A stretch of 59,219 nt of DNA from Methanosarcinaceae archaeon (GTDB lineage Archaea; Halobacteriota; Methanosarcinia; Methanosarcinales; Methanosarcinaceae): contig JAIPUR010000016.1 in the NCBI GenBank assembly GCA_020055655.1, positions 1 through 59,219 on the forward strand, given 5' to 3'. Positions 17,538-47,261 of this stretch are shown here, piece by piece. The notes beneath the pieces are model-generated. The model did not search any database and was not told the DNA's origin. It was given only the letters and a program-made list of their open reading frames with translations. Each line of letters begins with the position of its first letter. Position 1 is the first letter of the stretch. The position numbers and the translations under genes are program-made.

Positions 17538-17609
17538 GGGTTTTGCAAAGTAACACAGATATCTAATAAGATAAAATCCATACTTTTCTTAAAGATGGAG
17601 TTATTCATT

Positions 17610-18242
17610 ATGAATTTCAAAAATGTATTCAAGAACTGTTCATTTATTTCTCTTTTTTTAATTCTGGCCTTATTCCTACTTAGCGCAACTACCAGTGCTC
17701 AGGCCATTGCTAGCGTATCTCCAGAGAAATTGCAGGTTGAGGAAAATGCAAAATTTACATTGGACATCACAATAACGCCTGATGCGGCCTTAGCAGGGGC
17801 AGAATTCCAGCTAGAGTATGACCCTAAACTTGTCTCTGTTACAAAGGTATCTGAGGGGGCTTTTCTGAAACAGGGGAATGAAGGTACTTTGTTCTCAAAG
17901 GGTACTATTGATAACAACAATGGAATCGTGACCGACATATATGGAGTGATAATTGGAAAAGAAATGATCTTGGACCCCGGGATCTTTGCAAGCGTGGAAT
18001 TTGAGGCAGGAGATTCATCAGGAATATCTGAAATTACACTAAAAAATATGATCCTTAGCAATTCCACTGGAGTAAGCCTTCCACTGGAGGTCAACGATGG
18101 AAAAGTTCTGGTAGGGGACGTGGAAGAAGAAATACCAGAATCTGTTGACGCTAAGGATCAGGAGAAAAGTGCAGGGCAGAATGGATTCCTGATCTCGATC
18201 TTTGCAATTCTGTGCATCTCTTTTCTGTTCATGAGGAAATAA
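17610..18242 (+). CDS. Secreted cohesin-domain protein, membrane-anchored
   Basis: About 210 residues. Signal peptide (about 1-33, ending TTSAQA), then one cohesin-type domain (about 36-170) recognisable by VEENAKFTLDITI, AGAEFQLEYDPKLVSV, SEGAFL and a late GKVLV strand. An acidic linker leads to a C-terminal hydrophobic helix and a short basic end (FMRK), so it would face outside, anchored in the membrane. Cohesins bind dockerins or other surface proteins; no dockerin gene is seen in the window. ATG at 17610 has GGAG 10 bases upstream; 17595 is an in-frame alternative. Confidence 0.8.
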   Translation: MNFKNVFKNCSFISLFLILALFLLSATTSAQAIASVSPEKLQVEENAKFTLDITITPDAALAGAEFQLEYDPKLVSVTKVSEGAFLKQGNEGTLFSKGTIDNNNGIVTDIYGVIIGKEMILDPGIFASVEFEAGDSSGISEITLKNMILSNSTGVSLPLEVNDGKVLVGDVEEEIPESVDAKDQEKSAGQNGFLISIFAILCISFLFMRK

Positions 18243-32356: not shown

Positions 32357-32383
32357 ATGCATTACTATATTTATACGGAAATT

Positions 32384-32851
32384 ATGGACGAAAAAGGGCA
32401 AATCACCATAGATTATCTGATCAGTATCACAATATTCCTATTCGCAGTTATTTTTGTATTTAACTACACCTCAGGGATCTTTACTCCCTTCCAGTCAAAC
32501 TCAGATGAGGTAACACTCATAGCTGACAGGGTTTCTACCACGCTCGTGGAAAAAAGACTGAGTGTAGGAGATGAGGGCACACCCAACCTTATCGATGAAT
32601 CAGAGGTTGACAGCTTCTTCACTGAACTCAATGGGAACTACGACACAGTCATAGACTCCCTGGGAATGAACGGAAGCTACCTGCGATATGACCTCAACGT
32701 TACTCTGGAGAACAGTACAGCACTCACAGATTCAGCAGGCAAGATAATCCCAGTTGGTGTCAACGTAGGGCAAACAAAGCGAATAGTCCTATTAAGAGAT
32801 AATATTTCAGGAAATACCGAGACCCTTACCATGTCATTCAGGGTGTGGTAA
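32384..32851 (+). CDS. Prepilin-like protein A1 (type 1)
   Basis: About 155 residues. The start MDEKG-QITIDYLIS has the prepilin pattern: short charged leader, Gly, Gln, then a hydrophobic helix to about residue 27. The rest is a small extracellular beta-rich domain with Asn glycosylation sequons. It is paralogous to B1 at 37438 (EDGQISLDFLLGI start). ATG at 32384 is preferred to 32357 because the TATA box spacing and the B1 start agree. First gene of operon A; its end is two bases from A2. Role: pilin or pseudopilin (inference). Confidence 0.75.
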   Translation: MDEKGQITIDYLISITIFLFAVIFVFNYTSGIFTPFQSNSDEVTLIADRVSTTLVEKRLSVGDEGTPNLIDESEVDSFFTELNGNYDTVIDSLGMNGSYLRYDLNVTLENSTALTDSAGKIIPVGVNVGQTKRIVLLRDNISGNTETLTMSFRVW

Positions 32852-32852
32852 C

Positions 32853-33470
32853 ATGAATGAAAAAAGTTTATCTGATATCAAGGCTAGTTCCTCGGCCCAA
32901 ATACACACCCTTGAAGCCGTCATTACCTCAATGATAATGGTAGGCATCATAATATTCACGGTACAGGCAACATCCCTCACCCCGCTTACATCCTCAACAG
33001 CTAATGCGCATATAGAGGCACAGCTTCAGACAATGGGACAGGACATGCTCAGTGCACTTGCATATTCATCATACGGACAGGATTCAAAGCTTAAGGAAGA
33101 CGTGCAGAACTGGAACGGAAAAGAATATGTCTGGAACGGAAGCGCTTACCAGATGTTCGCCTCAGAAAGCACAGCCCTTCAGAATAGTTCACTTGCAGAT
33201 ACACTCCTAATGGTTGCCGTCCCAAGGGGAATAGCCCACAATGTACATTTTGCTTGGATAGATGATGACGGTATCTTGAGAGACAGGAGATACATCTACA
33301 ACGGCGAGCCTTCAGACAATGCAGTAATCATATCGAAGAAGGTCCTGCTCTCAGATAACGATGTAGGCAACCTATCTACATTTTATGCAAGCACAAGGAT
33401 CCCGGATGCTGATATTTCTACAGATTTCTACAATATAGTCGACGTGAGAATGACATTATGGAGAATGTGA
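32853..33470 (+). CDS. Prepilin-like protein A2 (type 2)
   Basis: 205 residues. A 16-residue polar leader ends in SSA, followed by QIHTLEAVITSMIMVG and a membrane helix. The SAQIHTLE segment is repeated almost exactly in B2 (RAQIHTLE). The outer domain has family-like elements near the end (DNAVIISKKVLL, VRMTLW) that match B2 (EDAVVVRRLVTL, VRLTSW). It starts one base after the A1 stop. Confidence 0.75.
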   Translation: MNEKSLSDIKASSSAQIHTLEAVITSMIMVGIIIFTVQATSLTPLTSSTANAHIEAQLQTMGQDMLSALAYSSYGQDSKLKEDVQNWNGKEYVWNGSAYQMFASESTALQNSSLADTLLMVAVPRGIAHNVHFAWIDDDGILRDRRYIYNGEPSDNAVIISKKVLLSDNDVGNLSTFYASTRIPDADISTDFYNIVDVRMTLWRM

Positions 33471-33479
33471 GGCCTGATA

Positions 33480-34352
33480 ATGATCAACATGAAAAGCTTA
33501 GATGATTCCGCACAGTTGTTATTGATCGCAGGCTTTGCAGTAGGAGTTGGTATAGTAGTTATCACCATCATGCTCAACAATGTCATATATGCCAGTAATA
33601 TAGCATCGGAATCCAGTATCGATACTTCACGCTACGAAATGGCCAATGTTCTCCAGATGACCACCGAAGCATACGAAGATGCATACCATTATGCCATAAC
33701 AGGCGGTTCATTTGACAACGATGCTTTTGAACAATACCTTGAGAACTACACAGACAAGGCATCCCAGAACTACGGTGTAGCAGGCTTAAGCATCTCCTGT
33801 CAGACTGACAATATATCAACAGCATATTTCACACATAATGGACTTGCAGATGGAGAGAACGACTGGATACTTGTGAAAAATGTCAATATCACTGACTCTT
33901 TTGCGTTTGCTATACCCGATAAATCCCTGCTAGGAAACGAATCCAACAAAGTGATGATAAAGGCCACAAGCACATCCGGAACCATGTTGTGGTCAATGGA
34001 ATTCTACAATTCCAGTGGAAACATCAATATCACAGTCTCCGACCAGTCATCAACCATCGGTAACTACCAGAGCAACAGCGGGGAGATCAATATAACAGCT
34101 GACAAGATAGATGGGACCGGAATAGCTCCCGCATTCAGATTCTCTGACCGTACTGCAGGACAGGATTATTCAATAAATATCATAAACGGAAGTTATGCGG
34201 CCGGAACATACTCAATATCCGGCAATACGAGCACAGGTCAGTCTTTTATCCAGGCACGTTACTGGACGATAAATCCCATAGTCAGCATATCATCAAGAGG
34301 AATTACCATTAACAGGAGCATTCCAATATCACTACCAGGAGGAGTTCAATGA
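33480..34352 (+). CDS. Prepilin-like protein A3 (type 3)
   Basis: 290 residues. Leader to DDSA, then QLLLIAGFAVGVG and a long hydrophobic helix ending in NNVIYASN, then a large extracellular part. It corresponds to B3 (SNG-QWIALSGF, with NQAVIAGYHSS after the helix) but is nearly twice as long; the extra part is a beta-rich, Ser/Thr/Asn-rich domain. Its last bases overlap the start of A4 by 4 (ATGA). Confidence 0.72.
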   Translation: MINMKSLDDSAQLLLIAGFAVGVGIVVITIMLNNVIYASNIASESSIDTSRYEMANVLQMTTEAYEDAYHYAITGGSFDNDAFEQYLENYTDKASQNYGVAGLSISCQTDNISTAYFTHNGLADGENDWILVKNVNITDSFAFAIPDKSLLGNESNKVMIKATSTSGTMLWSMEFYNSSGNINITVSDQSSTIGNYQSNSGEINITADKIDGTGIAPAFRFSDRTAGQDYSINIINGSYAAGTYSISGNTSTGQSFIQARYWTINPIVSISSRGITINRSIPISLPGGVQ

Positions 34353-34822
34353 AGAGGTTGAGAAATGATGAGAATGCAGTCTCCCTTTCCATAGGATTTA
34401 TTCTCACCTTCTCCATAACAGTGCTGGTACTGGTTACCATCCTGACATCATTCTATTCTCTGATGAACCAGGCAGAGCAAACAGTCATGCGTGACGAATT
34501 CGAGATACACGGAAGCGACCTTGCAGTGAAGATAACGACCATTGATACCATAGCAGGAACTGCAATTAACTCAGGTGCAACTGTGGGAGAGATAAGGTAT
34601 GATGTATCCCTTCCTGAAAAGATTGCAGGAAAACACTATGAAATCGAGTTGTCCAATACGACAAATGACATAATCATTTCCTCGGAGGAAAGAGATGAGA
34701 CCCGAGTCAAAGTACCTTTTTCAACCGATGATGCAACAGTTCTTTCAACGACACTGTACAGTTCGCAGGGCGAATTCCAGATCGTCTACAACCCTAGCAC
34801 AAATACCATAGAAATGTCTTGA
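34349..34822 (+). CDS. Prepilin-like protein A4 (type 4)
   Basis: 157 residues. The leader MKRLRNDENA precedes VSLSIGFILTFSITVLVLV. The extracellular domain includes GTAINSGATVGEIRYDVSLPEKIAGKHYEI, which aligns with B4 (MYVILPANGKIEIDYTIPAKAGKDDYII). It overlaps A3 by 4 bases, consistent with coupled translation. Confidence 0.75.
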   Translation: MKRLRNDENAVSLSIGFILTFSITVLVLVTILTSFYSLMNQAEQTVMRDEFEIHGSDLAVKITTIDTIAGTAINSGATVGEIRYDVSLPEKIAGKHYEIELSNTTNDIIISSEERDETRVKVPFSTDDATVLSTTLYSSQGEFQIVYNPSTNTIEMS

Positions 34823-34827
34823 AAGCG

Positions 34828-35622
34828 ATGAATATGACAGGCAGAAAAGATAGACATAAGAACCTCAAAACATCTGAAGAAGCCATTACCGAGGTACTTG
34901 ATTTTGTAATAACCCTTGGAGTTATGCTTCTGGCACTGGCGATCATCGGGGTTGCAGGTTATCCAATGCTTGAGCATATGCAGGAAAGAGGGCATATTGA
35001 AAATGTGGAGCAGAGTTTTTCAGTCCTAAAGCCAAACATGAATAAAGTAGTATACGGCAAAGCACCTTCGCAATCCGTGGAACTGAAAATGTACGGCGGT
35101 ATGATCAGGGTTACAGGGGATAGCTCCATTAATGTCACCATGCAGGTATGGAATGAATCATCATCATCCATAGAAAATATTTTCACCACCAGAAGTTTGA
35201 GGTCAATAGAGAACGAATTTGAAGATACGTCTATAGCCTACGAGAACACAGGAGCATGGGCTAAATATTCTCAGGGAAACGCCATAGCCATCTCAGAGCC
35301 TGATATAAGCTATGACCAGAATATGCTTTTAATACCTATGGTTCCGATCTCTGGCTCCGAAGGTATTTCAGGATCAGGGCTTGTGAGAGTAATATTTGAA
35401 GGTGGGCAGTTGTCGGTTGAAAGGATCGAGAACGTATCGCAAGTAAGCATTACCGTGAAAAGTAGCTATTACACCGGATGGAAACGCTTCCTGAATGAAT
35501 CAATAGCCATGGAAATAACAAGTGTCGATGCAGCCAATGATACATTTACTGCAAGCAGAAACTACAACCCGAACATTGATGTTATTATTCCCATTGCGCC
35601 CATTACCGCAACAATAGAATGA
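34828..35622 (+). CDS. Prepilin-like protein A5 (type 5)
   Basis: About 264 residues. A longer leader (to SEEA) precedes ITEVLDFVITLGVMLLALAI. The head starts with the type-5 signature: NVEQSFSVLKPNMNKVVYG and APSQSVELKM. The same signature is in A6 and B5. ATG at 34828 was chosen; the frame opens at a TTG (34819) overlapping the A4 stop. Role unknown; pilin/pseudopilin by inference. Confidence 0.74.
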   Translation: MNMTGRKDRHKNLKTSEEAITEVLDFVITLGVMLLALAIIGVAGYPMLEHMQERGHIENVEQSFSVLKPNMNKVVYGKAPSQSVELKMYGGMIRVTGDSSINVTMQVWNESSSSIENIFTTRSLRSIENEFEDTSIAYENTGAWAKYSQGNAIAISEPDISYDQNMLLIPMVPISGSEGISGSGLVRVIFEGGQLSVERIENVSQVSITVKSSYYTGWKRFLNESIAMEITSVDAANDTFTASRNYNPNIDVIIPIAPITATIE

Positions 35623-35638
35623 AAAAGAGTGATGATAT

Positions 35639-37147
35639 ATGAAGAAACTGCTTGAATCCGAAGATGGCATCTCTCCAGTGGTCGGAATGATCATTGTCCT
35701 TGCACTTACCATTACATCCATAAGTCTGATACTACTTTACGCAACGCCTACCCTTGACAACATGGAGGATATGGCTAACGCCCAGGGAGTAGAGCAGGCA
35801 TTTACAGTTTTTGACTCCAGGACGAGTAAGGTAGCTCTGGGAGAGTCACCAAGCCAGACAACATCATTTTCCATCAGAGACGGGAATATTGAAGTAAATG
35901 GAAAAAACGACTCCTATAATGATAGCAAAATAGTTGTTATCTGTGTAAACAGCAGTTCTGGATGGTACAGCGGTTTTGAAGGGAGCATATACAATTGGAG
36001 ATCATGGGAACCATATCTTGGTCAGCCTGGGATGACTGAATTCAATGCTTCCATGGGAAGTATCACCTACACCAAAGATGATCGGATCATAGGTTATGAA
36101 GGTGGAGGTATATGGTCGAAGTATCCCAGTGGCAGTGCGGTTATGATATCCCCGCCTGAGCTACATTATAATGGAGAAACTGTCACCCTACCTATAATGG
36201 CGATAGCCGGTGGTCAGATATCCAGCGGGACAGCTAATGTGGATGTGACAGTCAGCTCTGGCAATATGCCGTCTGTATTGTACCCTGACCCTTCAGTAGA
36301 TTCGAATAGGATCAATCCTGTGGCTTCGGACAAAGTGCTTATCTACATAAAAAGTGAATTTTACAACGCCTGGGCTGATTATGCAGAAACACTGACTTCC
36401 ACCAATACTGCTCTGGATCATGAGAACAAGACAGCCATCATTGAACTGGATACTATAGCAGACATGGGAACATTTCCTCTGGCACATTCATTCAGGATCA
36501 CCGGTATGGATCATGTGGGTCCTGCACCAATCCACAATTTTTCATTTTATTTTTATGTTGAAGGAGATTCAAGTTTCTTTAAATCCTCTGGAATGATCAT
36601 GACTGCTACATCAGGAACAAAAGAGCTTGTATATAGTTTATCCAAGAAAAATCCTGGCGGTAACATAATACTGGCCAGAGCCCCAGGTGTAGCTGAGTCT
36701 AATTATGCAATCGAGTATACCGATAGCTCGGCAGGGATTATTGAAATATGGGAAAGCAATTCCAGCAGTTATTTTAGCGTTTATTCAGAAAAGAAACCTA
36801 AAAAATTTGCAGAAGGTACTGTTGACTTCCTTAGTGATACTTATCTAATGGATTACGACAGCAGTAGCCAAGCAACCTCCTGGGGTTCTGTTGGTGCCAC
36901 ATCAACCACACCCGACCTGTATATTGTAAAAGGCAATGCAAACAGCACCCAGTCATTAAACAACATTTCCCAACACTATCTAAGGCTCCTGGCACAGGAA
37001 GGTACTATAGAGTATAACTGGGATCAAAAAAAGAACGATAAGATTGAGATGGATAAATCCTCATATAGCCTGGAATATGATAGTGGTGGTGCCATTTTGA
37101 CATATCTGCATGTGAGCAGAAATGACCTTTCAGCCACGTTGACTTAA
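35639..37147 (+). CDS. Prepilin-like protein A6 (type 5, extended)
   Basis: 502 residues, the largest of the set. Leader MKKLLESEDG, then ISPVVGMIIVLALTITSI, the clearest archaeal prepilin start here. Residues about 45-260 repeat the type-5 head (GVEQAFTVFDSRTSKVALGESPSQT). About 230 further residues have no partner in A5 or B5 and look beta-rich. GTGATGATAT directly precedes the ATG. It is last in operon A; nothing obvious follows but the operon B promoter region. Confidence 0.76.
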   Translation: MKKLLESEDGISPVVGMIIVLALTITSISLILLYATPTLDNMEDMANAQGVEQAFTVFDSRTSKVALGESPSQTTSFSIRDGNIEVNGKNDSYNDSKIVVICVNSSSGWYSGFEGSIYNWRSWEPYLGQPGMTEFNASMGSITYTKDDRIIGYEGGGIWSKYPSGSAVMISPPELHYNGETVTLPIMAIAGGQISSGTANVDVTVSSGNMPSVLYPDPSVDSNRINPVASDKVLIYIKSEFYNAWADYAETLTSTNTALDHENKTAIIELDTIADMGTFPLAHSFRITGMDHVGPAPIHNFSFYFYVEGDSSFFKSSGMIMTATSGTKELVYSLSKKNPGGNIILARAPGVAESNYAIEYTDSSAGIIEIWESNSSSYFSVYSEKKPKKFAEGTVDFLSDTYLMDYDSSSQATSWGSVGATSTTPDLYIVKGNANSTQSLNNISQHYLRLLAQEGTIEYNWDQKKNDKIEMDKSSYSLEYDSGGAILTYLHVSRNDLSATLT

Positions 37148-37335
37148 AACTAAAGATGTAAACTACGTAAAATATACACAAATGGGATGTTCTAATGCTA
37201 TTGCATAGAACAAAATAATATATCTATCGTTGTTTACCATATTGTGAGAGGACATTTAGACCACTTAATAAATATAGTGTTTAATTATATAATATCTAGG
37301 ATATCAGGTGTTTGCTATACCTCCAGTAAATGGAT

Positions 37336-37420
37336 GAAGCTTATCAAATTCCTCAGTATAAGCTTCAAATTTCACTGTTTTAAGCTTGAAGCTAAATAAA
37401 AAACAAACAATTTTATATTA
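37336..37420 (+). promoter_or_regulatory. Promoter region of pilin-like operon B with spaced AAGCTT palindromes
   Basis: AAGCTT occurs at 37337, 37360 and 37382, 23 and 22 bases apart (two helical turns), inside larger inverted repeats: GAAGCTTAT/ATAAGCTTC (37336-37344 and 37358-37366) and AGCTTCAA/TTGAAGCT (37361-37368 and 37386-37393). A TATA box TTTTATATTA (37411-37420) lies 18-24 bases before the first ATG triplet, so the mRNA is probably leaderless. The arrangement suggests cooperative binding of a regulator just upstream of the TATA box. Confidence 0.55.
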
Positions 37421-37437
37421 AATAGGTAATATATTAT

Positions 37438-38409
37438 ATGATGATGGATGAAGATGGGCAAATTTCATTAGATTTTCTACTTGGCATTTCTTTGTTTCTT
37501 ATAGCACTTATGTTCATAGTACAATTCATCCCGGGATTATTCATACCTGGTACATCAGGAGAGGGAAGTCTGGACTATACGGCCTATCGCACAGCCACCA
37601 TACTAGTGGAAGACCCAGGATGGTGGGGTAACAGCACAAGCAGCGGCACTGACTGGGAAGAAAACACCGATAACATTCTGAGATTGGGACTTGCAGCTGA
37701 TGATGACAGCAGTTCAAAACTTACCAACACCCCTAACCTCCTGTCAAAGCAGAAGATCACCCAGATGATGATGGTTAACGAAAGCACCCTGGTCGAAAGG
37801 CTCGGCCTATACAATAACGTCGATGGCACCCTTTTTTCCTACGGATACAATATATCTATCACACAGAACGATACACCCCAGAGTCTGAACAACACACCCA
37901 TACTACTAGGAGAAACAATCCCGTATGACAGGGATGTATCGAAGATTACCCGAATAGTATTGGTAGAGAAAGGAGTTGAGGCACAGTTTGAAGCAGATGA
38001 ATTGACAATAAACGCATCAGAGGTTGAAGATCCCATATTGAACGTTACAGGACCCTTGAACGGTGAGATAAAAGTTCAGATCAGCAATTTGAACATAACC
38101 GGAGTGGACCCCAGTTTTAAGAGACTGATGCTTGACGGAGTACAACTTAACGAAGGTCCGGATTATATTTCTCATAAGCTGGTCAATGGAACTATGATAC
38201 CATTGGAGCCCACAGGCAAAATTAACAATAGCGATATCGTGATCTTTTACATTGAGCCGGGGATCTTCAACGATACCCGTACATACGAACTGGAGATTGA
38301 CCTCAAGGACATAACATTTACAAAATCAGGACCTCCTTTTTTGGATTTTAACCAATATATTAAAACCTTTTATGAACCCGCATACCTCACTGTGGAGGTG
38401 TGGAACTGA
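37438..38409 (+). CDS. Prepilin-like protein B1 (type 1)
   Basis: 323 residues. Three successive ATGs (37438, 37441, 37444) precede DEDG-QISLDFLLGISLFLIAL; 37444 gives the same leader as A1. After the helix, FVQFIPGLFIPG leads into a head about twice as long as that of A1. It shares a VEDPGWWGNSTSS segment and an ARIVLV-like strand (TRIVLVEKG; A1 has KRIVLLRD). Many N-glycosylation sequons. No ribosome binding site: leaderless start likely. Confidence 0.75.
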   Translation: MMMDEDGQISLDFLLGISLFLIALMFIVQFIPGLFIPGTSGEGSLDYTAYRTATILVEDPGWWGNSTSSGTDWEENTDNILRLGLAADDDSSSKLTNTPNLLSKQKITQMMMVNESTLVERLGLYNNVDGTLFSYGYNISITQNDTPQSLNNTPILLGETIPYDRDVSKITRIVLVEKGVEAQFEADELTINASEVEDPILNVTGPLNGEIKVQISNLNITGVDPSFKRLMLDGVQLNEGPDYISHKLVNGTMIPLEPTGKINNSDIVIFYIEPGIFNDTRTYELEIDLKDITFTKSGPPFLDFNQYIKTFYEPAYLTVEVWN

Positions 38410-38918
38410 ACGACAGAGCACAGATCCATACACTGGAAGGGCTTGCAGCTGCTATTTTGATGGTCATTACAATGTTAGCAATAACTCAAAGCGCCATGAT
38501 AGTAACACCCCAGAATGAGCTTTCTATGATCGTACATCAGGAACAAATATCATCCGATGCATTGACAGTGCTTGATATAGCACCTGATACAGCAATACAG
38601 TACAACCTGACAGAGTGCGTTGCAGGCTGGCAGGGAAATGAATCGAACGTTACTTCATCCAATCTGGAAACACTTGATAATGAACTTGCAAACTTGTTAC
38701 CTGATATCAAGTACAATGTAGATCTGGCTTACGTGAAGGATGGCGAATTGAACACAAAGCAAGTTATCATCAACGGAGCAGCTACTGAGGATGCGGTGGT
38801 CGTCAGACGCCTTGTGACCCTTTCCAATTCAAGCGTTACCAGTTCAGGGGGAGCATGGAACCTGACAGATGATGAGTTGATGGTTGTGGAGGTGAGGTTA
38901 ACATCATGGCAGATCTGA
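38400..38918 (+). CDS. Prepilin-like protein B2 (type 2)
   Basis: 172 residues. Short leader ending NDRA, then QIHTLEGLAAAILMVITML. It parallels A2 over its whole length and ends VEVRLTSWQI. The start is unclear: GTG at 38400 overlaps the ribosome binding site GGAGGTG (38394-38400), whereas an in-frame CTG at 38406 would have proper spacing and overlap the B1 stop as CTGA. No ATG is available upstream of the conserved start. Confidence 0.72.
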   Translation: MELNDRAQIHTLEGLAAAILMVITMLAITQSAMIVTPQNELSMIVHQEQISSDALTVLDIAPDTAIQYNLTECVAGWQGNESNVTSSNLETLDNELANLLPDIKYNVDLAYVKDGELNTKQVIINGAATEDAVVVRRLVTLSNSSVTSSGGAWNLTDDELMVVEVRLTSWQI

Positions 38919-39370
38919 AGAAAGACAGTAATGGACAATGGATAGCCCTTTCCGGTTTTGTGATATCACTGATAATCATAATTCTGGCAGTGATGGCAAA
39001 CCAGGCTGTGATCGCAGGCTATCATTCATCGAATGCGGCCCTGGAATTCCCTAAAGAGAACATACGTGAACTGAATCTGCAGACCAGAGATAATGCTGCC
39101 ATTGCCAGAGAACTGGCTTATGAGATCAATAAGACCAGTAACGAAAGCATACATATTATCTACGACGATCTTTTCAACAATTGCAGTTCACAGATGAGAA
39201 TGCTATACGCCATTCATGGAGAGAACATCAACGTAGAGTTAGTTTCGATCAATTCCACAACTAAAGTAAGCAATGCCTCTGAAATTGATATGATCAAGGT
39301 CAATATCACATATGCTAATGAAAAGACATTCTACGTAGCAGAGCCTGAGATAATAGAGGTGAATGTATGA
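38906..39370 (+). CDS. Prepilin-like protein B3 (type 3)
   Basis: 154 residues. Leader MADLKKDSNG, then QWIALSGFVISLIIIILAVMA. The short head carries LEFPKENIREL and a helical stretch. It corresponds to A3 by position, leader and helix. It overlaps B2 by 13 bases; GGAGGTGAGG lies upstream as ribosome binding site. Confidence 0.73.
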   Translation: MADLKKDSNGQWIALSGFVISLIIIILAVMANQAVIAGYHSSNAALEFPKENIRELNLQTRDNAAIARELAYEINKTSNESIHIIYDDLFNNCSSQMRMLYAIHGENINVELVSINSTTKVSNASEIDMIKVNITYANEKTFYVAEPEIIEVNV

Positions 39371-39810
39371 AACGGTTTTTCAAAGATGAAGAAGGCGTTT
39401 CTATCATGGTGGAATATGTCCTGTTATCTCTGATAGCCATTCTTTTTTTAATGATAATAAGCATCAATTCTGATGCGATATTTATCGAGAACGCCAATGA
39501 TGTCGTAATTGAAAACCAGTTCAGCGATGTGGGAAATATGATGAGCACAATGATAACCGATATGTACGTCATCCTGCCAGCTAACGGGAAGATAGAGATC
39601 GACTACACCATACCTGCTAAAGCAGGGAAAGACGATTACATCATCAATGCGGATATTGCGATGAGTGACCAGATAATAGAGGTTATTTCCCTTACATCCG
39701 GCAAAAAAGTAAGAGTGACCATCGGTGGAATTGCTAACACTATGCCAATAAATGGCACTGCATCAAGCAGCGCTAGTAAACATGTGATCAGTTATGACTC
39801 GAGAAGATAG
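39367..39810 (+). CDS. Prepilin-like protein B4 (type 4)
   Basis: 147 residues. Leader MKRFFKDEEG, then VSIMVEYVLLSLIAILFLMI. The Glu at position 6 of the mature form is like that of classical type IV pilins. The head aligns with A4 (YVILPANGKIEIDYTIP). It overlaps B3 by 4 bases (ATGA), with AGAGGTGAATGT upstream. Confidence 0.75.
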   Translation: MKRFFKDEEGVSIMVEYVLLSLIAILFLMIISINSDAIFIENANDVVIENQFSDVGNMMSTMITDMYVILPANGKIEIDYTIPAKAGKDDYIINADIAMSDQIIEVISLTSGKKVRVTIGGIANTMPINGTASSSASKHVISYDSRR

Positions 39811-40525
39811 AAATAATGCTGCAGTATCTGAAACAGTAGGATACATATTGTTGCTTGCGATCGTAACTCTGTCAATGGGAGTAATCTACGCAGGCGGATA
39901 TCCCATATTACAGTCTAACATAGATGCAACGATATTTGAAAGTGCAGAGCAGAGCTTTGTTGTGCTTCAAAGCAATATGAAAAAAGTTTCCTTTGATCAG
40001 ACTCCGGTCAAGATACTGAAGGTCAAGCTCCAGAGTAACACCCTTTCTGTTGACAGCGACTCATCGATCACAATTAACTATGACAGCGATACTATTTTGT
40101 GTCCCGCTGGAAAGATAGAGTTTTCAAAAGATAAAAAGACCATCACTTATGAGATGGGAGGCGTATTCAAGAAATACCCACCGCATGCAATGACCATGGT
40201 CTCAAAACCCCCAATATACATCGATACGGTCAACGGTATCGAAATGACAACCATTGGAGTCATTTCAGTAAAAGGCGATAATTCAATATCCGGAAGAGGG
40301 ATCTCATCTATCATCATGGAACACAACAGCAGCACTATGACAATGTCACCGGGAATTACCAACGTCACGGTCCAGGTCAACAGCACACATGCTCAGAGCT
40401 GGGAGAACTATCTTAAGGATACGGGATTTGACATAATCAATAGCACAGATTCAACTGTTATTGCAATGAAGAATGAAACATTGCTGACGGTAAGCGAACA
40501 TATAGTTGATGTTAATATCACTTAA
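39794..40525 (+). CDS. Prepilin-like protein B5 (type 5)
   Basis: 243 residues. Leader MTREDRNNAA, then VSETVGYILLLAIVTLSM. The type-5 signature follows: SAEQSFVVLQSNMKKVSFDQTP, and the rest follows A5 (GRGISSIIME and an AQSWENYL segment comparable to YTGWKRFL in A5). It overlaps B4 by 17 bases; GTGATC 13 bases upstream may be its ribosome binding site. Last gene of operon B. Confidence 0.75.
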   Translation: MTREDRNNAAVSETVGYILLLAIVTLSMGVIYAGGYPILQSNIDATIFESAEQSFVVLQSNMKKVSFDQTPVKILKVKLQSNTLSVDSDSSITINYDSDTILCPAGKIEFSKDKKTITYEMGGVFKKYPPHAMTMVSKPPIYIDTVNGIEMTTIGVISVKGDNSISGRGISSIIMEHNSSTMTMSPGITNVTVQVNSTHAQSWENYLKDTGFDIINSTDSTVIAMKNETLLTVSEHIVDVNIT

Positions 40526-41089: not shown

Positions 41090-44000
41090 TCAGCTAATGC
41101 TGATCATTCCCTTGGGCCTTACTACCAGTGTTTCACTTGCAACCAGTACATCGCTGACGTTGTTGACGTTGTAGGCGTAGCCTGTTATGTAAGCCTTGCC
41201 TGCAACTGCACTACTGAAGTTAACTGAATTGGAACCTACCACTGATATGTTAACCGGATTTGAGTAGTTATTGAAATAACCAACATTAGTATAAAGGTGT
41301 ACATAGGCTCCGGTCAAACTTCCATTTAGACCCTTGACAGTCACATTAATACTTGTTTTATTATCGATGAGCATGATCCGATCCTCGGGATCCAGGGTCA
41401 GAGACCCAAGAGGAGGTATTGTGAAGTTTGCACCCACACCACCAAGGCTTGCACCTCCTACTGAAGGGACAGTGACCGTGACCAGTTCAGATTCAAGGTC
41501 TGTGTATGTAACAGATGAAGTTGGTAGGATAATAGGTATATATCCTGCTCCCTCTAATTTAAGCTGGTACCATAAGCCCCATTTGTCACCGGATCCCAGG
41601 TTTGGTAAATACCACTGCAGTCTTTTCCTGTCGCTGTATTCACTTACAGCAGGTTCTGCATTTGCAGTAGGTGGCGATGTTGGCGTTTCAAAGTAAGATT
41701 CGTTACCCACAGTGGAATTACTGCTTCCTGAAATGTAGCTGGCCTCTGCGATTGACAACTGGGACACATAGTCTTTGGGTATGTCTATGTTCATTGCGGT
41801 GCCACTTGCTGAGAAATTGGTAATGTCTGCTGCAATGCCCCTGAATATATCCTTAAGCACACTGGAGTTAGGTGCAAAGTAGTATTCTCCACCTGTTATG
41901 TCTGCGATTTCCTCAAGCATCGGGTCCACCTCGGATTCGTCGTTACCAAAACCGACCGTGTAGATCACAGAATTGTTCCCCTTTGCCCTGTATGCTTCCT
42001 CAAGGAGGGAATGATAACCTGCATTATCCATTCCGTCCGACATGATAAGTATGGTAGAATTATCTTCTGACGATGAAAGTTCGTTATTGGCAACATGCAG
42101 ACCTTCATCAATGGCCGTCAGACCATCTGCAGTGATGGAATCGATCACACTTTCAAGGTGTACCAGAGAATCATTCTCAAAGGTAGAAGCCGCCTTTGCT
42201 GTCCACTGATTCCATTGTACATCAGGATAAGTAACAGTATTATCCTTGTCATCGATCACCAGATCGAAGGATTCGAAATATCTCTTGCTGTTCACTTCCA
42301 TTTCAAAAATATATACCCATGAAGAACCGTCCCACTTCTGGACATTGATATCATGACCACCATCGGATGTCATGAGGAATATCTCATCTGATTCGGGAAG
42401 CGGTCTCATTTGCACCCAGCGGGTGTATCCGCTTCCAAGATTGTTTGCTGATGCTTCCGGACTCCACGTGGAACCATCCCATGTACGGTACTTGGAAATA
42501 CGGGATCTGTCACCCCATACAACTATTCCCTCACCACTGGAGGATTCAAAGGCAACATCCACGGATCTCCTGTTAGCTTCATAGACATTCGTTCCAACTT
42601 CAAGTGGTGTTTCCCATGAATTTCCATCCCAGGCAGTTACATGGACATCATGATGCTCATCCTGCGTGGCAAGGAGGAGTTCATCTGAACCTGGTCTGCC
42701 TGCCATCTTTATCCAGTAGACATGTTCAGTGGAGGCATAAAGCGTATTTTCGGATTTCCATAGATTATCACCGTTCCATATGCGATAATTTACGGAACCG
42801 GACTGGTCATACCATGAGACCATAGCCCTTCCTGAATCCTGTTCATATACTACATCAAAACACTGGAATCCGTCCTGGCTTGCATTCGTTGCCAATTCCA
42901 CAAACTCATCCCATGAGGAGCCATCCCATACACTTCCATAGATCTTACCTTCACTGTCAAGTGACATAAGGACCATGTCATCAGAACCCGGGTCTGCTGC
43001 AAGCTCTATCCACTCAACACTGCTGCCGTTGCCGGTAGAATTGAAGCCTTCTATTGCGGTACCGTTATTCCATGAAGAGCCATCCCATAAACTATAAAGA
43101 GGAGTGTTATTGCTTACGCTGGTATCCATATATACGGCTAGAGCATCTCCTGAGGTCTGTTCATATTCAATGTCAAAGTTTCTGGTGTAATAATCCACAC
43201 TGGTATCAATATGTGGTTTTGAACCCAGGTTCTCAGAAAGGACATATATATCACCCCAGTCCTCCCCGTCCCATACCTGGGCCTTAAGGTCGAAGAAATC
43301 ATTTCCTGTACACAGGATGATCTCAGAGTTCAGAGGATTGGATTCAAGTTCCACCAGATAAGGCCAGCCACCTGTATGCTCGGCATATTTTTCAGCAGAC
43401 CATGAAGCACCCTCTTCCAGTAAACGATACTTAGGAGTTGATCCATCCCCGCTTGTATCGAAATACGCGGCCATTACGTTATCCAGTATGGTCTTGGAAA
43501 CATCGATGGTAAAGTACGTATCTTCCATTGAACCCGGTGACTTTGAGATATCAATATGATACGTTTCACCTGAAACAAGGGTCTTGGATACTTCAATCCC
43601 TGTGCTTCCATTTGACGACGCCACAAGGTCAGCACCATCATAAAGGGATGCATCCAATTGGGAAGCATCTGACCAGCTCACATCAAAAGTATAATAACCA
43701 TCTTCCTGGGCTGTGAAATAGCCCAGCCAGGTACTGTTATCAAGAACGTAGCTTGACTGGGTATTGCTTAATTCCTCTCCTTCAAAACTGTAAATAGCCA
43801 TACCGGCCTTATCGCCTCTTTCTTCATCAAAACTTGTCATGAATGCATGAGACGACAATTGGGTTGCACTCTTCTTATCGATATAAGTTGTAATTGTAAA
43901 GTCCTCTGTACCTTCACCAAAGCCCATGACGTCCACAGTCCAGTTACCCATTTCAACGGTATCAACGTCATCTTCGGGATATGTTGTGAACACCGGCCTG

Positions 44001-47000
44001 ACCCAGATGTATTCTGTATTACTATCTTCTGCGTAGTATCCACGGCTGTCATTGCTTTTACTATAGACATGTCCCGAGGGGCTTGTAAGTATGAGGCTGA
44101 GATCATTACTGCTGTTTTCCCAGTCCAGCTGTACCTTAATATCATTGATGCTTTCATTGATCAGGAAGGTCTCACTGTACGAATCGTCAAAATAAGGTAT
44201 GTCCCATAAAAAATCATATGAGACATCGGTTAATTGGACCGAGCTGCTGCTCTGTGCCAGTACATGGGCCTGCCAGACTATCTCTATGTTCCTTACGGCA
44301 CCATCGTAACCTGAACCTTTAATAAGATGATAATAGTCATAGAATGACAGCTTGTTTGAAACGGGATTCAAAAGGCCACTCAGATCATACTGGTAATCTT
44401 CCCATTGCCTGTTGACACCTGTATTTGAGGACGGGATAAGTGTGAAGTTTTCTCCGTTGAGCTGTATGAGAGCCTCTCCGGCGCTTGCACCTCCGTAATT
44501 GGACCCTGCATCAAAAACCACATCAAAATCATATCCTTCAAACTGGAGAGTCACATTCTTTTCGCTCAGGGAACTGTTCATTTCCAATGTGTCATGGAAA
44601 GCATGATCATAAGGGGTAAAACCATCCGTGCCAAACTCAACATCTACCGCGTCGTAATCACTCAGCTCCTGGGCAATACTCGCATATATGGTCTTGAGTT
44701 CGGAACTTGTCGGTGCATTGTAGTATTTACCACCGGTTTCAGCTGCGATGTACTGCAGAAGGGATTCGTCAAGGTTGTTTCCAAGACCTATTGTATAAAT
44801 TGTAATTCCATTGGCAAGAGCATCGTTAATTGCATTATCACCACGTTGATCTTCACCTGCATTGGTATTACCATCAGTCAGGACAATCATCGCCTTTTTG
44901 GAACTCAAGCGGCCATTGTCGATCAAAATATCATTTGCATCTCCCATGCCTTCACCCATTGCAGTTGAACCACCATCCTGTATAGAATCAATGGACGTGT
45001 GTGCAAGAGTATTGTTTGAATATGAATTAAGATGGGTCAGGCCCAGATCAGTAGAACTGGATCCTGCAAAAGAAACAAGTCCAACCTGTGCATTTGATGT
45101 AAGGTGGTCAACAAAACTTTTGGCCGCGGTCTTTGCGTCGGATATTGGCGTTCCTGACATACTTCCGGAACGGTCCATTACAAGAACAACATCTAGAGGT
45201 TCCCCTGCATAGTAATCAGGATCCATACTCCCGGAGCGGTCAAGGACAAGCATGGCACTTGCTGTAGGTCTTACTATAGGCAACTCACCTTCCACCGAGA
45301 TAACAGTGGTAACGTTTACAACAGAGCCGGTGTCTATAGTTGGCGGTTCTACAAAAAAAGATACGCTCAGGAACGGTTCATCCTTTACTGTAACATTCGC
45401 CTGTATTGTCATATTGTCTGTGGTAGCTATAATGCTTGTATTGCCTGAAACATTACCTGTGAATGTGGCATATAACCTGCCATCAGCACCTGTTGATGCA
45501 TTGATATGATCTGTAGCACCAATGCCATCGACTCTCAGTGTACCTGTACTTGTGTTAGTGTTGTTGAGTACTATGGGAATATCTGGTAGTGCATGACCCC
45601 ACTGGTCTAGGGCAACTACAGTTATTGTGGAATTATGATTACCGTCCAGGGAATTATCCAATACAGCGTTTGGAATAGCATACATGTCGATGGAATCAAG
45701 CACATCGGCTGTGAAATTCAGGGTGGTGGAGTTAATAAAAGAAGTGTATCCGGATTCATTTCTGAAAGTGGCCGTTACTGGGACAGATTCAACGTAGGGA
45801 GTAGGACCTACTTTAGTAGTCGCCTGTCCCATGTAATTCAAAGGCATCAGTATAGAGCTTGTTGGTGTTGTGAACCTGACCTGTTTACCAATGGAGCTTG
45901 TAAGAGGCACGACGGGATTTAGGAACTGATCCACCGGTTGCGCTGATAATGTGTAATAATCAATATTATTGGCGATCGCAGCTGCAGGGAATTTATTCAG
46001 GAAGAATTTATCAATATTGTCGGCAATGCCACTTATAGTTATATTATGCTGCAGAGAACTGTTTGCAACACTAATTCCTATAATATTGTTGCCTGACCTC
46101 TTGTCTGTGGTAAATGAATTGCTGAGCTGACCATAGATATCTGTAAGTCCACTGGCATGACTTACGTAAGCTGAATCATATGCAACCGGGCTATTAGAGA
46201 CTGTGTTATCAGGAGAGCTTACATTGAAAAGTACCATGGCGTTTTCTATTGGATTTGAATACCGGTCATATACTATGACATTCAGGTTCGAACTTGTGTT
46301 GACAGTATAATCCGCATTATAGGAGATCCTCATCAGGTCCGGTGGAGCAGGATCGATGCTGAGGACTGTACTATTGCTAAATGATGCGGCGCTTGAATCA
46401 ATATAGATAGTTCCTGCGATTGTGGAATTGATATGAAGTACTCCGTAATCGTAAGGAGCACTAAGATAGCTGGTATCATAGGACGTTTTGTTTGTTTCTA
46501 AAAGTACTTTGTTGCCGGCATAAAGAGGTATATCCACATCATGAAGCAGGGATCCGAAAATGTCCTTTACCCTGACATTAACTGAAATTAACTCGCTTGT
46601 GTTGGTATTTCCATATATGTCATGTGGATAGAATGTAATATTGGTCACGTTGCCTGCTATATTTACAGACTTGTTGGCATATACAGAATATGAGCTGGTC
46701 TCAAGAGGATGGATTGTTCCGTTTGTCAGTACATATGAGTCTCCTGAACTTACATTCAGATGTGCGCTACCGGCAATTGTTGAGTTAAGCAGGACCTCTG
46801 CAATGCCTGATGCATTGCTTAAGGCAGATGAAGAACTCAACACTCCAAGATCAGTTGTAAAATTGACCAGTGTATTATTTATGGGCGTTGAATTTCCGGC
46901 ATAAGTGACAAGCACAGTGATATTGGCAGGAGTACCTGCACTACTTTCAAAATCCGGATCTAGTGAATCAATATCAACCGCCATGGCAGACATTGTCAAC

Positions 47001-47047
47001 AAAATAAGTATCGAAGAAATGTATATTAACCTTTTAAAGAATTCCAT
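41090..47047 (-). CDS. Giant secreted VWA/Ig-like/Trp-repeat surface protein
   Basis: About 1985 residues with a signal peptide (about 1-23, ending SAMA). Order seen: several Ig/invasin-like modules (to about 590); two MIDAS-like DRSGSM motifs at 603 and 625; a full VWA domain following the second (IVLTDGNTNAG, TIGLGNNLDES); P-domain/PPC-like beta modules (about 900-1200); at least six WDGxSW-type repeats (about 1210-1590), likely a beta-propeller; the remainder of a second VWA (TADGLTAIDEGL, ILIMSDGMDNAG, YTVGFGNDES, about 1625-1750); a beta tail ending without a membrane helix or sorting signal. ATG at 47047 has GAGGT 6 bases upstream. It is convergent with operon B and may be a pilus-linked adhesin (inference). 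Confidence 0.88.
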   Translation of the reverse strand: MEFFKRLIYISSILILLTMSAMAVDIDSLDPDFESSAGTPANITVLVTYAGNSTPINNTLVNFTTDLGVLSSSSALSNASGIAEVLLNSTIAGSAHLNVSSGDSYVLTNGTIHPLETSSYSVYANKSVNIAGNVTNITFYPHDIYGNTNTSELISVNVRVKDIFGSLLHDVDIPLYAGNKVLLETNKTSYDTSYLSAPYDYGVLHINSTIAGTIYIDSSAASFSNSTVLSIDPAPPDLMRISYNADYTVNTSSNLNVIVYDRYSNPIENAMVLFNVSSPDNTVSNSPVAYDSAYVSHASGLTDIYGQLSNSFTTDKRSGNNIIGISVANSSLQHNITISGIADNIDKFFLNKFPAAAIANNIDYYTLSAQPVDQFLNPVVPLTSSIGKQVRFTTPTSSILMPLNYMGQATTKVGPTPYVESVPVTATFRNESGYTSFINSTTLNFTADVLDSIDMYAIPNAVLDNSLDGNHNSTITVVALDQWGHALPDIPIVLNNTNTSTGTLRVDGIGATDHINASTGADGRLYATFTGNVSGNTSIIATTDNMTIQANVTVKDEPFLSVSFFVEPPTIDTGSVVNVTTVISVEGELPIVRPTASAMLVLDRSGSMDPDYYAGEPLDVVLVMDRSGSMSGTPISDAKTAAKSFVDHLTSNAQVGLVSFAGSSSTDLGLTHLNSYSNNTLAHTSIDSIQDGGSTAMGEGMGDANDILIDNGRLSSKKAMIVLTDGNTNAGEDQRGDNAINDALANGITIYTIGLGNNLDESLLQYIAAETGGKYYNAPTSSELKTIYASIAQELSDYDAVDVEFGTDGFTPYDHAFHDTLEMNSSLSEKNVTLQFEGYDFDVVFDAGSNYGGASAGEALIQLNGENFTLIPSSNTGVNRQWEDYQYDLSGLLNPVSNKLSFYDYYHLIKGSGYDGAVRNIEIVWQAHVLAQSSSSVQLTDVSYDFLWDIPYFDDSYSETFLINESINDIKVQLDWENSSNDLSLILTSPSGHVYSKSNDSRGYYAEDSNTEYIWVRPVFTTYPEDDVDTVEMGNWTVDVMGFGEGTEDFTITTYIDKKSATQLSSHAFMTSFDEERGDKAGMAIYSFEGEELSNTQSSYVLDNSTWLGYFTAQEDGYYTFDVSWSDASQLDASLYDGADLVASSNGSTGIEVSKTLVSGETYHIDISKSPGSMEDTYFTIDVSKTILDNVMAAYFDTSGDGSTPKYRLLEEGASWSAEKYAEHTGGWPYLVELESNPLNSEIILCTGNDFFDLKAQVWDGEDWGDIYVLSENLGSKPHIDTSVDYYTRNFDIEYEQTSGDALAVYMDTSVSNNTPLYSLWDGSSWNNGTAIEGFNSTGNGSSVEWIELAADPGSDDMVLMSLDSEGKIYGSVWDGSSWDEFVELATNASQDGFQCFDVVYEQDSGRAMVSWYDQSGSVNYRIWNGDNLWKSENTLYASTEHVYWIKMAGRPGSDELLLATQDEHHDVHVTAWDGNSWETPLEVGTNVYEANRRSVDVAFESSSGEGIVVWGDRSRISKYRTWDGSTWSPEASANNLGSGYTRWVQMRPLPESDEIFLMTSDGGHDINVQKWDGSSWVYIFEMEVNSKRYFESFDLVIDDKDNTVTYPDVQWNQWTAKAASTFENDSLVHLESVIDSITADGLTAIDEGLHVANNELSSSEDNSTILIMSDGMDNAGYHSLLEEAYRAKGNNSVIYTVGFGNDESEVDPMLEEIADITGGEYYFAPNSSVLKDIFRGIAADITNFSASGTAMNIDIPKDYVSQLSIAEASYISGSSNSTVGNESYFETPTSPPTANAEPAVSEYSDRKRLQWYLPNLGSGDKWGLWYQLKLEGAGYIPIILPTSSVTYTDLESELVTVTVPSVGGASLGGVGANFTIPPLGSLTLDPEDRIMLIDNKTSINVTVKGLNGSLTGAYVHLYTNVGYFNNYSNPVNISVVGSNSVNFSSAVAGKAYITGYAYNVNNVSDVLVASETLVVRPKGMISIS

Positions 47048-47261
47048 GACCATACCTCAAGCTCACCCAGGAGTGTAAACAAGCATTTTGATTTAAATAT
47101 TAAGACCATTGAGTATGTATTATAGATATATAATTGCAAATATAAATTACTTGTTATACAATATTCACGTAAATTACGCATTATATAAAAAAGTACAAAA
47201 CTATTTACAGAAAAACTTAAATTTGGCACGCCCATTATCAAATCTCATCAAGGTGATATTT

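Follow-up and report, generated by a model that had tools for sequence, protein, structure and literature searches.

What do eleven prepilin-like proteins build when their genes stand in two tandem operons on a contig that encodes no pilus motor? This question is raised by a stretch of 59,219 nucleotides (hereafter the window), which is contig C7 of a Methanolobus genome and holds no gene for a pilus ATPase, its TadC membrane partner or a prepilin peptidase. In this study, we computed the prepilin N-termini, the composition and order of the pilin set, its linkage to ATPase and TadC genes in relatives, the co-occurrence of the set with a motor (on contig C26) and with a giant, secreted-looking protein, and the modules fused to its pilins. 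The finding that the five pilin types of these operons (A and B) form a fixed, co-occurring and co-ordered set with prepilin N-termini is supported across archaeal genomes. By its published description, the clade-2 PilB4-type pilus catalogued for euryarchaea by Makarova, Koonin and Albers in 2016 (PMC4858521) fits this set. As a whole, a PilB4-type pilus with the C26 motor, a shaft of type 4 and the giant protein as adhesin of set B is the best explanation of the data, and we consider it probable.

Eleven prepilin-like proteins of five types

The eleven open reading frames (ORFs) are arranged head-to-tail at 32384-40525, flanked on one side by mre11 and rad50, a divergent pair, and on the other by a cyclophilin gene. 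Within the operons the genes overlap or almost touch (gaps of -17 to +16 nt), while A6 and B1, and thus operons A and B, are 290 nt apart. In the following list a slash stands before the +1 residue, and the evidence is given in brackets.

32384-32851, plus strand: A1, type 1 prepilin, DUF7287, MDEKG/QITIDY (Pfam E 3e-35, prepilin filter)
32853-33470, plus strand: A2, type 2 prepilin, DUF7288, SSSA/QIHTLE (Pfam, filter, structure model)
33480-34352, plus strand: A3, type 3 prepilin, DUF7261 below cut-off, DDSA/QLLLIAGF (Pfam, filter, structure model, profiles)
34349-34822, plus strand: A4, type 4 prepilin, DUF7266, ENA/VSLSIGF, PilA-like N-terminus, candidate major pilin (Pfam, type-4 profile against 8fj5)
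34819-35622, plus strand: A5, type 5 prepilin, DUF7289, EEA/ITEVLDF, TTG start (Pfam, filter)
35639-37147, plus strand: A6, long type 5 prepilin, DUF7289 and DUF7308, EDG/ISPVVG (Pfam, filter)
37438-38409, plus strand: B1, type 1 prepilin, long form, DUF7287, EDG/QISLDF (Pfam, filter)
38400-38918, plus strand: B2, type 2 prepilin, DUF7288, DRA/QIHTLE, GTG start (Pfam, filter)
38906-39370, plus strand: B3, type 3 prepilin, short form, SNG/QWIALSGF (A-only type-3 profile)
39367-39810, plus strand: B4, type 4 prepilin, DUF7266 below cut-off, EEG/VSIMVEY (Pfam, filter)
39794-40525, plus strand: B5, type 5 prepilin, DUF7289, NAA/VSETVGY (Pfam, filter)

For A1, a further in-frame ATG lies upstream at 32357. 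All eleven ORFs of the set, versus 0 of the 38 other ORFs in the window, passed a prepilin filter (a charged leader, Gly or Ala, then Gln, Val, Ile, Leu, Ala, Met or Phe, then an uncharged helix). Pfam assigned DUF7287 to A1 and B1, DUF7288 to A2 and B2, DUF7261 to A3, DUF7266 to A4 and B4, and DUF7289 to A5, A6 and B5, with DUF7308 additionally in A6; B3 had no Pfam match. Homology between the A and B members exceeded shuffled-C-terminus controls for types 1, 2, 4 and 5, for type 4 barely. Type 3 is the weakest pair, its pairwise score lying within noise. One profile, built solely from A-type type-3 proteins, detected B3 (E 1.2e-11); another, built solely from B-type ones, detected A3 (E 2.1e-8), and the best remaining matches of both were other type-3 proteins. 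An earlier note on this DNA had described eleven prepilin-like ORFs of five types in two operons, and the filter, the five Pfam families and the profiles bear this out; Pfam and the reciprocal type-3 profiles likewise place the types in the same order in both operons, operon A having two type-5 genes (A5 and A6).

The residue at +1 is Gln in types 1 to 3 and Val or Ile in types 4 and 5, as that note had reported and as the filter sees it. Motif-independent alignments show Gln+1 conserved to at least 90% across 56 proteins of type 2 and without exception in 57 proteins of type 3; they support Glu+6 of type 2 as well. Motif-free support is confined to these three positions, and the Asp at +5 of type 1 and the Glu at +6 of type 2 in a survey of 196 type-2 anchors were partly built into the search pattern.

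A2 was modelled as an N-terminal helix followed by a beta head (mean predicted local distance difference test score, pLDDT, 89.6) and A3 as a 67-residue helix followed by a beta-rich head (pLDDT 85.7); the first helix turns of A3 carry no acidic residue. The fold matches that type 3 gave, to spike and galectin-like domains, were not significant and were dismissed. Profiles of types 2 and 3 found no match among PDB sequences. A search for inverted repeats gave nothing useful. With the type-4 profile, an archaeal pilin of solved structure, 8fj5, was matched at E 3.2e-5, type 5 reaching E 3.1e-3. A Pilin_N search of the genome itself did not pick up the ORFs of the window, so Pilin_N alone misses this set.

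These similarities bear on what forms the shaft of a filament. Potentially, the sets are tip or initiation modules only, on a shaft of stand-alone PilA-type pilins (C43, C48), with motors shared among systems. Stand-alone Pilin_N proteins are indeed present in the genome, major pilins that stand alone and pilin sets swapped among ATPase/TadC pairs have been described (PMC4858521), and PilB3-C3 can replace PilB1-C1 in Haloferax (PMC6491452). However, the PilB4 type has a PilA-related pilin of its own (Makarova et al., PMC4858521), a role that type 4 fits. Modules on a foreign shaft are therefore a serious but unlikely alternative to a type 4 shaft.

The five types across archaeal genomes

Loci were collected via type 2, so that counts give how often the other types accompany type 2. 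About 150 loci were read (80 fetched by genome and 76 from named genomes, some contigs being in both), and each of their ORFs was typed by profiles grown from the A/B pairs of the window. They span Methanosarcinales, anaerobic methanotrophic (ANME) archaea, Methanomicrobia-type families and Halobacteria, and nearly all sets keep the same order. All five types were found in 72 of 81 loci (the 80 by genome and the window); types absent from the others were mostly at contig ends or obscured by frame choice. Types 3, 4 and 5 follow on the same strand after 175 of 196 type-2 genes, and the order is rearranged in one family of the order (L061, L069) and in L116. A failure of the five types to co-occur elsewhere was looked for; instead, the co-occurrence and order expected from the earlier note recur across archaeal genomes. 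DUF7288 is present in 47 of 60 relatives and, in a sample of the phylum, in 130 of 197 genomes and 63 of 84 genera. Haloferax volcanii has DUF7288 too.

In Halobacteria, the genes directly upstream of the set include a PilB-like ATPase in 32 and a TadC in 33 of 36 named loci. These set-linked ATPases are mostly 790-1590 aa long and are followed by TadC and then by types 1 to 5; a long type-5 gene is often convergent downstream of the set. Apparent fusions of TadC and type 1 (838-1031 aa) in Halobacteria were rejected when all ORFs were scored, as they are spurious long frames over TadC. One methanogen family also has ATPase and TadC genes adjacent to or convergent with the set (L120, L121, L123, L125). 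In several other Methanosarcinaceae genera (L055-L058), proteins of about 700-1060 aa with a FlaD/E (archaellum) domain are encoded just upstream of type 1; the domain is Pfam-confirmed in L055 and L058, and the others were placed by position. They were rejected as a sixth part of the set, being located elsewhere in the genus Methanolobus.

The loci also show what sets A and B are. A-type sets combine a short type 1 with a long type 3, and B-type sets a long type 1 with a short type 3. In a quick, midpoint-rooted tree of type 2, a starred branch deeper than the genus splits 63 A rows from 27 B rows and 4 A-labelled rows, where label A says that the adjoining type 1 is short or was not found, and no more. 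B-type sets occur alone in other families, and other Methanolobus have A+A or more copies. Because of this split and of the A+A and larger arrangements, the tandem pair is an assembly of old paralogues; judged from the type-2 tree, A and B are two ancient clades and not a recent tandem duplication. The earlier view of two versions with different heads holds, with A and B as old clades and not as a simple duplication. Operon B might be supposed to be a recent copy of A that has decayed or diverged without a separate function, as the two are adjacent at the short spacing given above and share their order. The depth of the starred branch, B-type sets on their own in other families, the A+A arrangement of other Methanolobus and the intactness of every operon B ORF all contradict this, and we find it hardly credible.

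A motor on another contig

The genome encodes five pilus-type ATPases. One belongs to the archaellum locus on C23, which is separate from the set; the set is thus not encoded with FlaI/FlaJ/FlaH and archaellins, as an archaellum would be. Two (C11, C21) lie beside pilin genes, and two are orphans. The orphan on C18 is accompanied by a MinD-like ATPase and by two TadC proteins of half size, and the one on C26 is paired with a full TadC. In the ATPase tree, C26 comes closest to the set-linked ATPases found in the methanogen family (57% identity; support 92/87, with long branches). As the tree resolves this link only moderately, we relied on co-occurrence. Among the 60 relatives, C26 orthologues (at least 687 bits) are set off from paralogues (at most 615 bits) by a clean score gap. 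Both motor and set were found in 43 genomes, the set only in 4, the motor only in 0 and neither in 13 (Fisher p 4.6e-10, a value that overstates independence, as set members share descent); for genomes at least 90% complete the counts are 40, 2, 0 and 7. The absences are spread over several genera in two or three families. The C26-type motor occurs with B-only sets (G006, G039, members of family f3) and with A-only sets. Since it accompanies both kinds of genome, a single C26 motor probably serves A and B. One A24/Arc_PepC_II prepilin peptidase gene is located at C3:49677-50375.

Two further loci of this genome carry pilin signals. In L161 (G000:C21, 6648-16999), a PstS-like phosphate-binding protein carries a pilin-type signal (MNLKKIFNDEAG/VSPIVATLVLVVVAI); next come PstC and PstA, then a PilB-like ATPase and two half TadC proteins, and last a Pilin_N protein and PhoU. 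By this gene content, L161 is a bindosome-like phosphate uptake locus. In L162 (G000:C11, 6125-8053, minus strand), a 642-aa modular archaeal pilin with Pilin_N, PKD and concanavalin-like lectin domains adjoins TadC and ATPase genes.

Bindosomes rely on class III signals together with a PilB/TadC pair, and the pairing of a pilin-signal PstS with PilB/TadC in the same genome lends some colour to the idea that the set consists of membrane or cell-wall proteins with pilin-like signals and no common filament, in a bindosome-like or S-layer-linked array. However, Pfam detected a solute-binding domain in none of the eleven set proteins, and the five-part composition and its order are fixed. Such an array seems very improbable to us.

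A giant protein and adhesin modules

Convergent with set B lies one further gene of the window:

41090-47053, minus strand: giant protein of 1987 aa, apparently secreted (Sec-type signal), with VWA (DxSxS metal site) and Big_1/Ig domains, predicted to partner set B as its adhesin (Pfam, co-occurrence with set B)

Its VWA match has E 7e-32, and the metal-site motif is present as DRSGS. Two DRSGS motifs in the protein are spaced by about 20 residues, and another VWA part follows roughly 900 residues further on, a layout that looks like one VWA domain nested in another. Within the genus, the giant occurs in 15 of 15 B carriers versus 0 of 12 others (p 5.8e-8), and over the 60 genomes in 19 of 22 B carriers versus 1 of 38 others (p 1.4e-11), including families in which it is unlinked; the shared descent mentioned for the motor inflates these values too. 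By analogy with bacterial tip adhesins, the giant is predicted to be an adhesin that works with set B.

Similar modules recur at related loci. A same-strand VWA gene adjoins the set in L116 and L136, VWA and PKD modules lie inside type 4 in L125 and L128-L131, VWA lies inside type 3 in L122, and Big_7 domains occur in types 3 and 4 (L119, L065). Type-2 pilins of 1470-1681 aa in L063, L066, L070, L072 and L073 have DUF7288 split by an insert of more than 1200 residues, in which FG-GAP repeats were confirmed for L063 and L066.

Grafted adhesin modules favour a surface filament over a secretion pseudopilus, that is, a short piston as in type II secretion that would carry the giant VWA protein, or others, across the S-layer. 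A pseudopilus likewise comprises five pilins, one of them major and four minor, and the giant could be an exported substrate, as it carries a Sec-type signal of its own and its gene lies next to set B. On the other hand, the set proteins had no Pfam or NCBIfam match to GspG-K and no Pfam match to secretin. Type 4 resembles pilus-forming pilins of archaea, and modules fused into the pilins of relatives suit display better than secretion. Archaea of this kind have no outer membrane, which also argues against a pseudopilus. Altogether, we regard the pseudopilus as improbable.

Elsewhere in the window, positions 17595-18242 (plus strand) of this methanogen encode a 215-aa protein with a cohesin domain.

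Proposed mechanism

Most likely, by analogy with bacterial PilHIJK and PilY1, these loci encode a type IV pilus whose conserved pilins bear adhesin modules that can be exchanged. Operons A and B would be the pilin sets of the euryarchaeal clade-2 PilB4-type pilus in Methanolobus. The archaeal prepilin peptidase of the genome would cut their prepilins, and the orphan pair on C26, a PilB-like ATPase with its TadC, would assemble them, with both sets on one motor. For the shaft, the PilA-like type 4 is the strongest candidate, and types 1, 2, 3 and 5, as conserved minor pilins, may initiate and cap the filament; type 3, lacking an acidic residue near +5 like the bacterial capping subunits, is a possible tip cap. 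As alternative versions, A and B would yield filaments with different exposed heads. The giant VWA/Ig protein may serve set B as an adhesin, much as PilHIJK minor pilins carry PilC/PilY1. Filament formation, the identity of the major pilin, the tip location and the function in adhesion are what we infer. It is tempting to speculate further that the system is an archaeal counterpart of the bacterial minor-pilin tip complex with its adhesin, namely a conserved five-pilin scaffold that bears VWA, FG-GAP, PKD or Ig adhesin modules, inside types 2, 3 or 4 or in a separate giant, and with one motor for two sets in Methanolobus; for this wider reading our confidence falls a little short of even.

Several observations weigh against the proposed pilus. 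Motor and peptidase genes are absent from the window, the link to C26 is a correlation in a genome with four other ATPases, and common descent weakens the statistics of both co-occurrences. When the models of types 2 and 3 were searched by fold, nothing in the PDB matched significantly, and their heads are therefore not recognised as pilin heads. The giant is present in G029, a Methanosarcinaceae genome with set A only, and falls below threshold in three B-like genomes. The literature searched holds no experimental data or known function for any component of this pilin set, and no literature naming the DUF families was found.

New here are the ancient A and B clades, the co-occurrence of the C26 motor with the set and that of the giant with set B. 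Five families listed only as DUFs gain a testable role, and a motor unlinked to pilin genes gains a predicted cargo. Found in roughly two of every three genomes sampled from the phylum, the set points to a surface structure that is widespread among methanogens, ANME archaea and haloarchaea. Module exchange among pilins, if true, would mean that archaea and bacteria reached the same solution to pilus specificity.

Comparison with known systems

The earlier note knew of no characterised system of this composition, a statement that gives way to the fit with the PilB4-type pilus. In that type, the ATPase has extra domains in Halobacteria, and motor and pilins are often apart; the signature pilin arCOG02911 is prone to duplication and 250-550 aa long, and the PilA-related arCOG03926 is a candidate major pilin (PMC4858521). 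The loci described here are alike in that the pilin set adjoins ATPase and TadC and the halobacterial ATPases have extra domains; by published description, the signature pilin resembles type 5 in length and duplication and the PilA-related pilin resembles type 4. Unlike the published locus type, Methanolobus has tandem pilin sets, its motor on another contig and a giant VWA protein tied to one set. We thus place the system within a pilus type already catalogued, as a variant distinguished by its two pilin sets, its remote motor and its VWA partner. In Haloferax, pilB4-pilC4 is expressed but unassigned (PMC4371748, PMC12542753). The Haloferax PilA/PilB3-C3 adhesion pili share class III prepilins and a clade-2 motor with the present system, but PilA is stand-alone and of a different family, and the five types are not PilA.

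Among bacteria, the type IVa pilus tip of PilHIJK and PilC/PilY1 (PMC10191384) likewise joins a conserved multi-pilin set to a large secreted VWA protein, and one of the archaeal pilins (type 3) lacks the acidic residue near position 5, as tip-capping subunits do. However, no sequence homology was found, the giant lacks the PilC/PilY1 beta-propeller (no Pfam match to the PilC family), and the tip location is putative in archaea. In the modular pilin PilB of Streptococcus sanguinis (PMC8179133), VWA is grafted on a pilin, as in types 3 and 4 of related archaea; in contrast, the VWA of the window is a separate protein, and the archaeal grafts occur in three pilin types and also comprise FG-GAP, PKD and Big domains. 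In summary, the archaeal module pattern matches that described for bacterial modular pilins and PilC/PilY1 (PMC8179133, PMC10191384).

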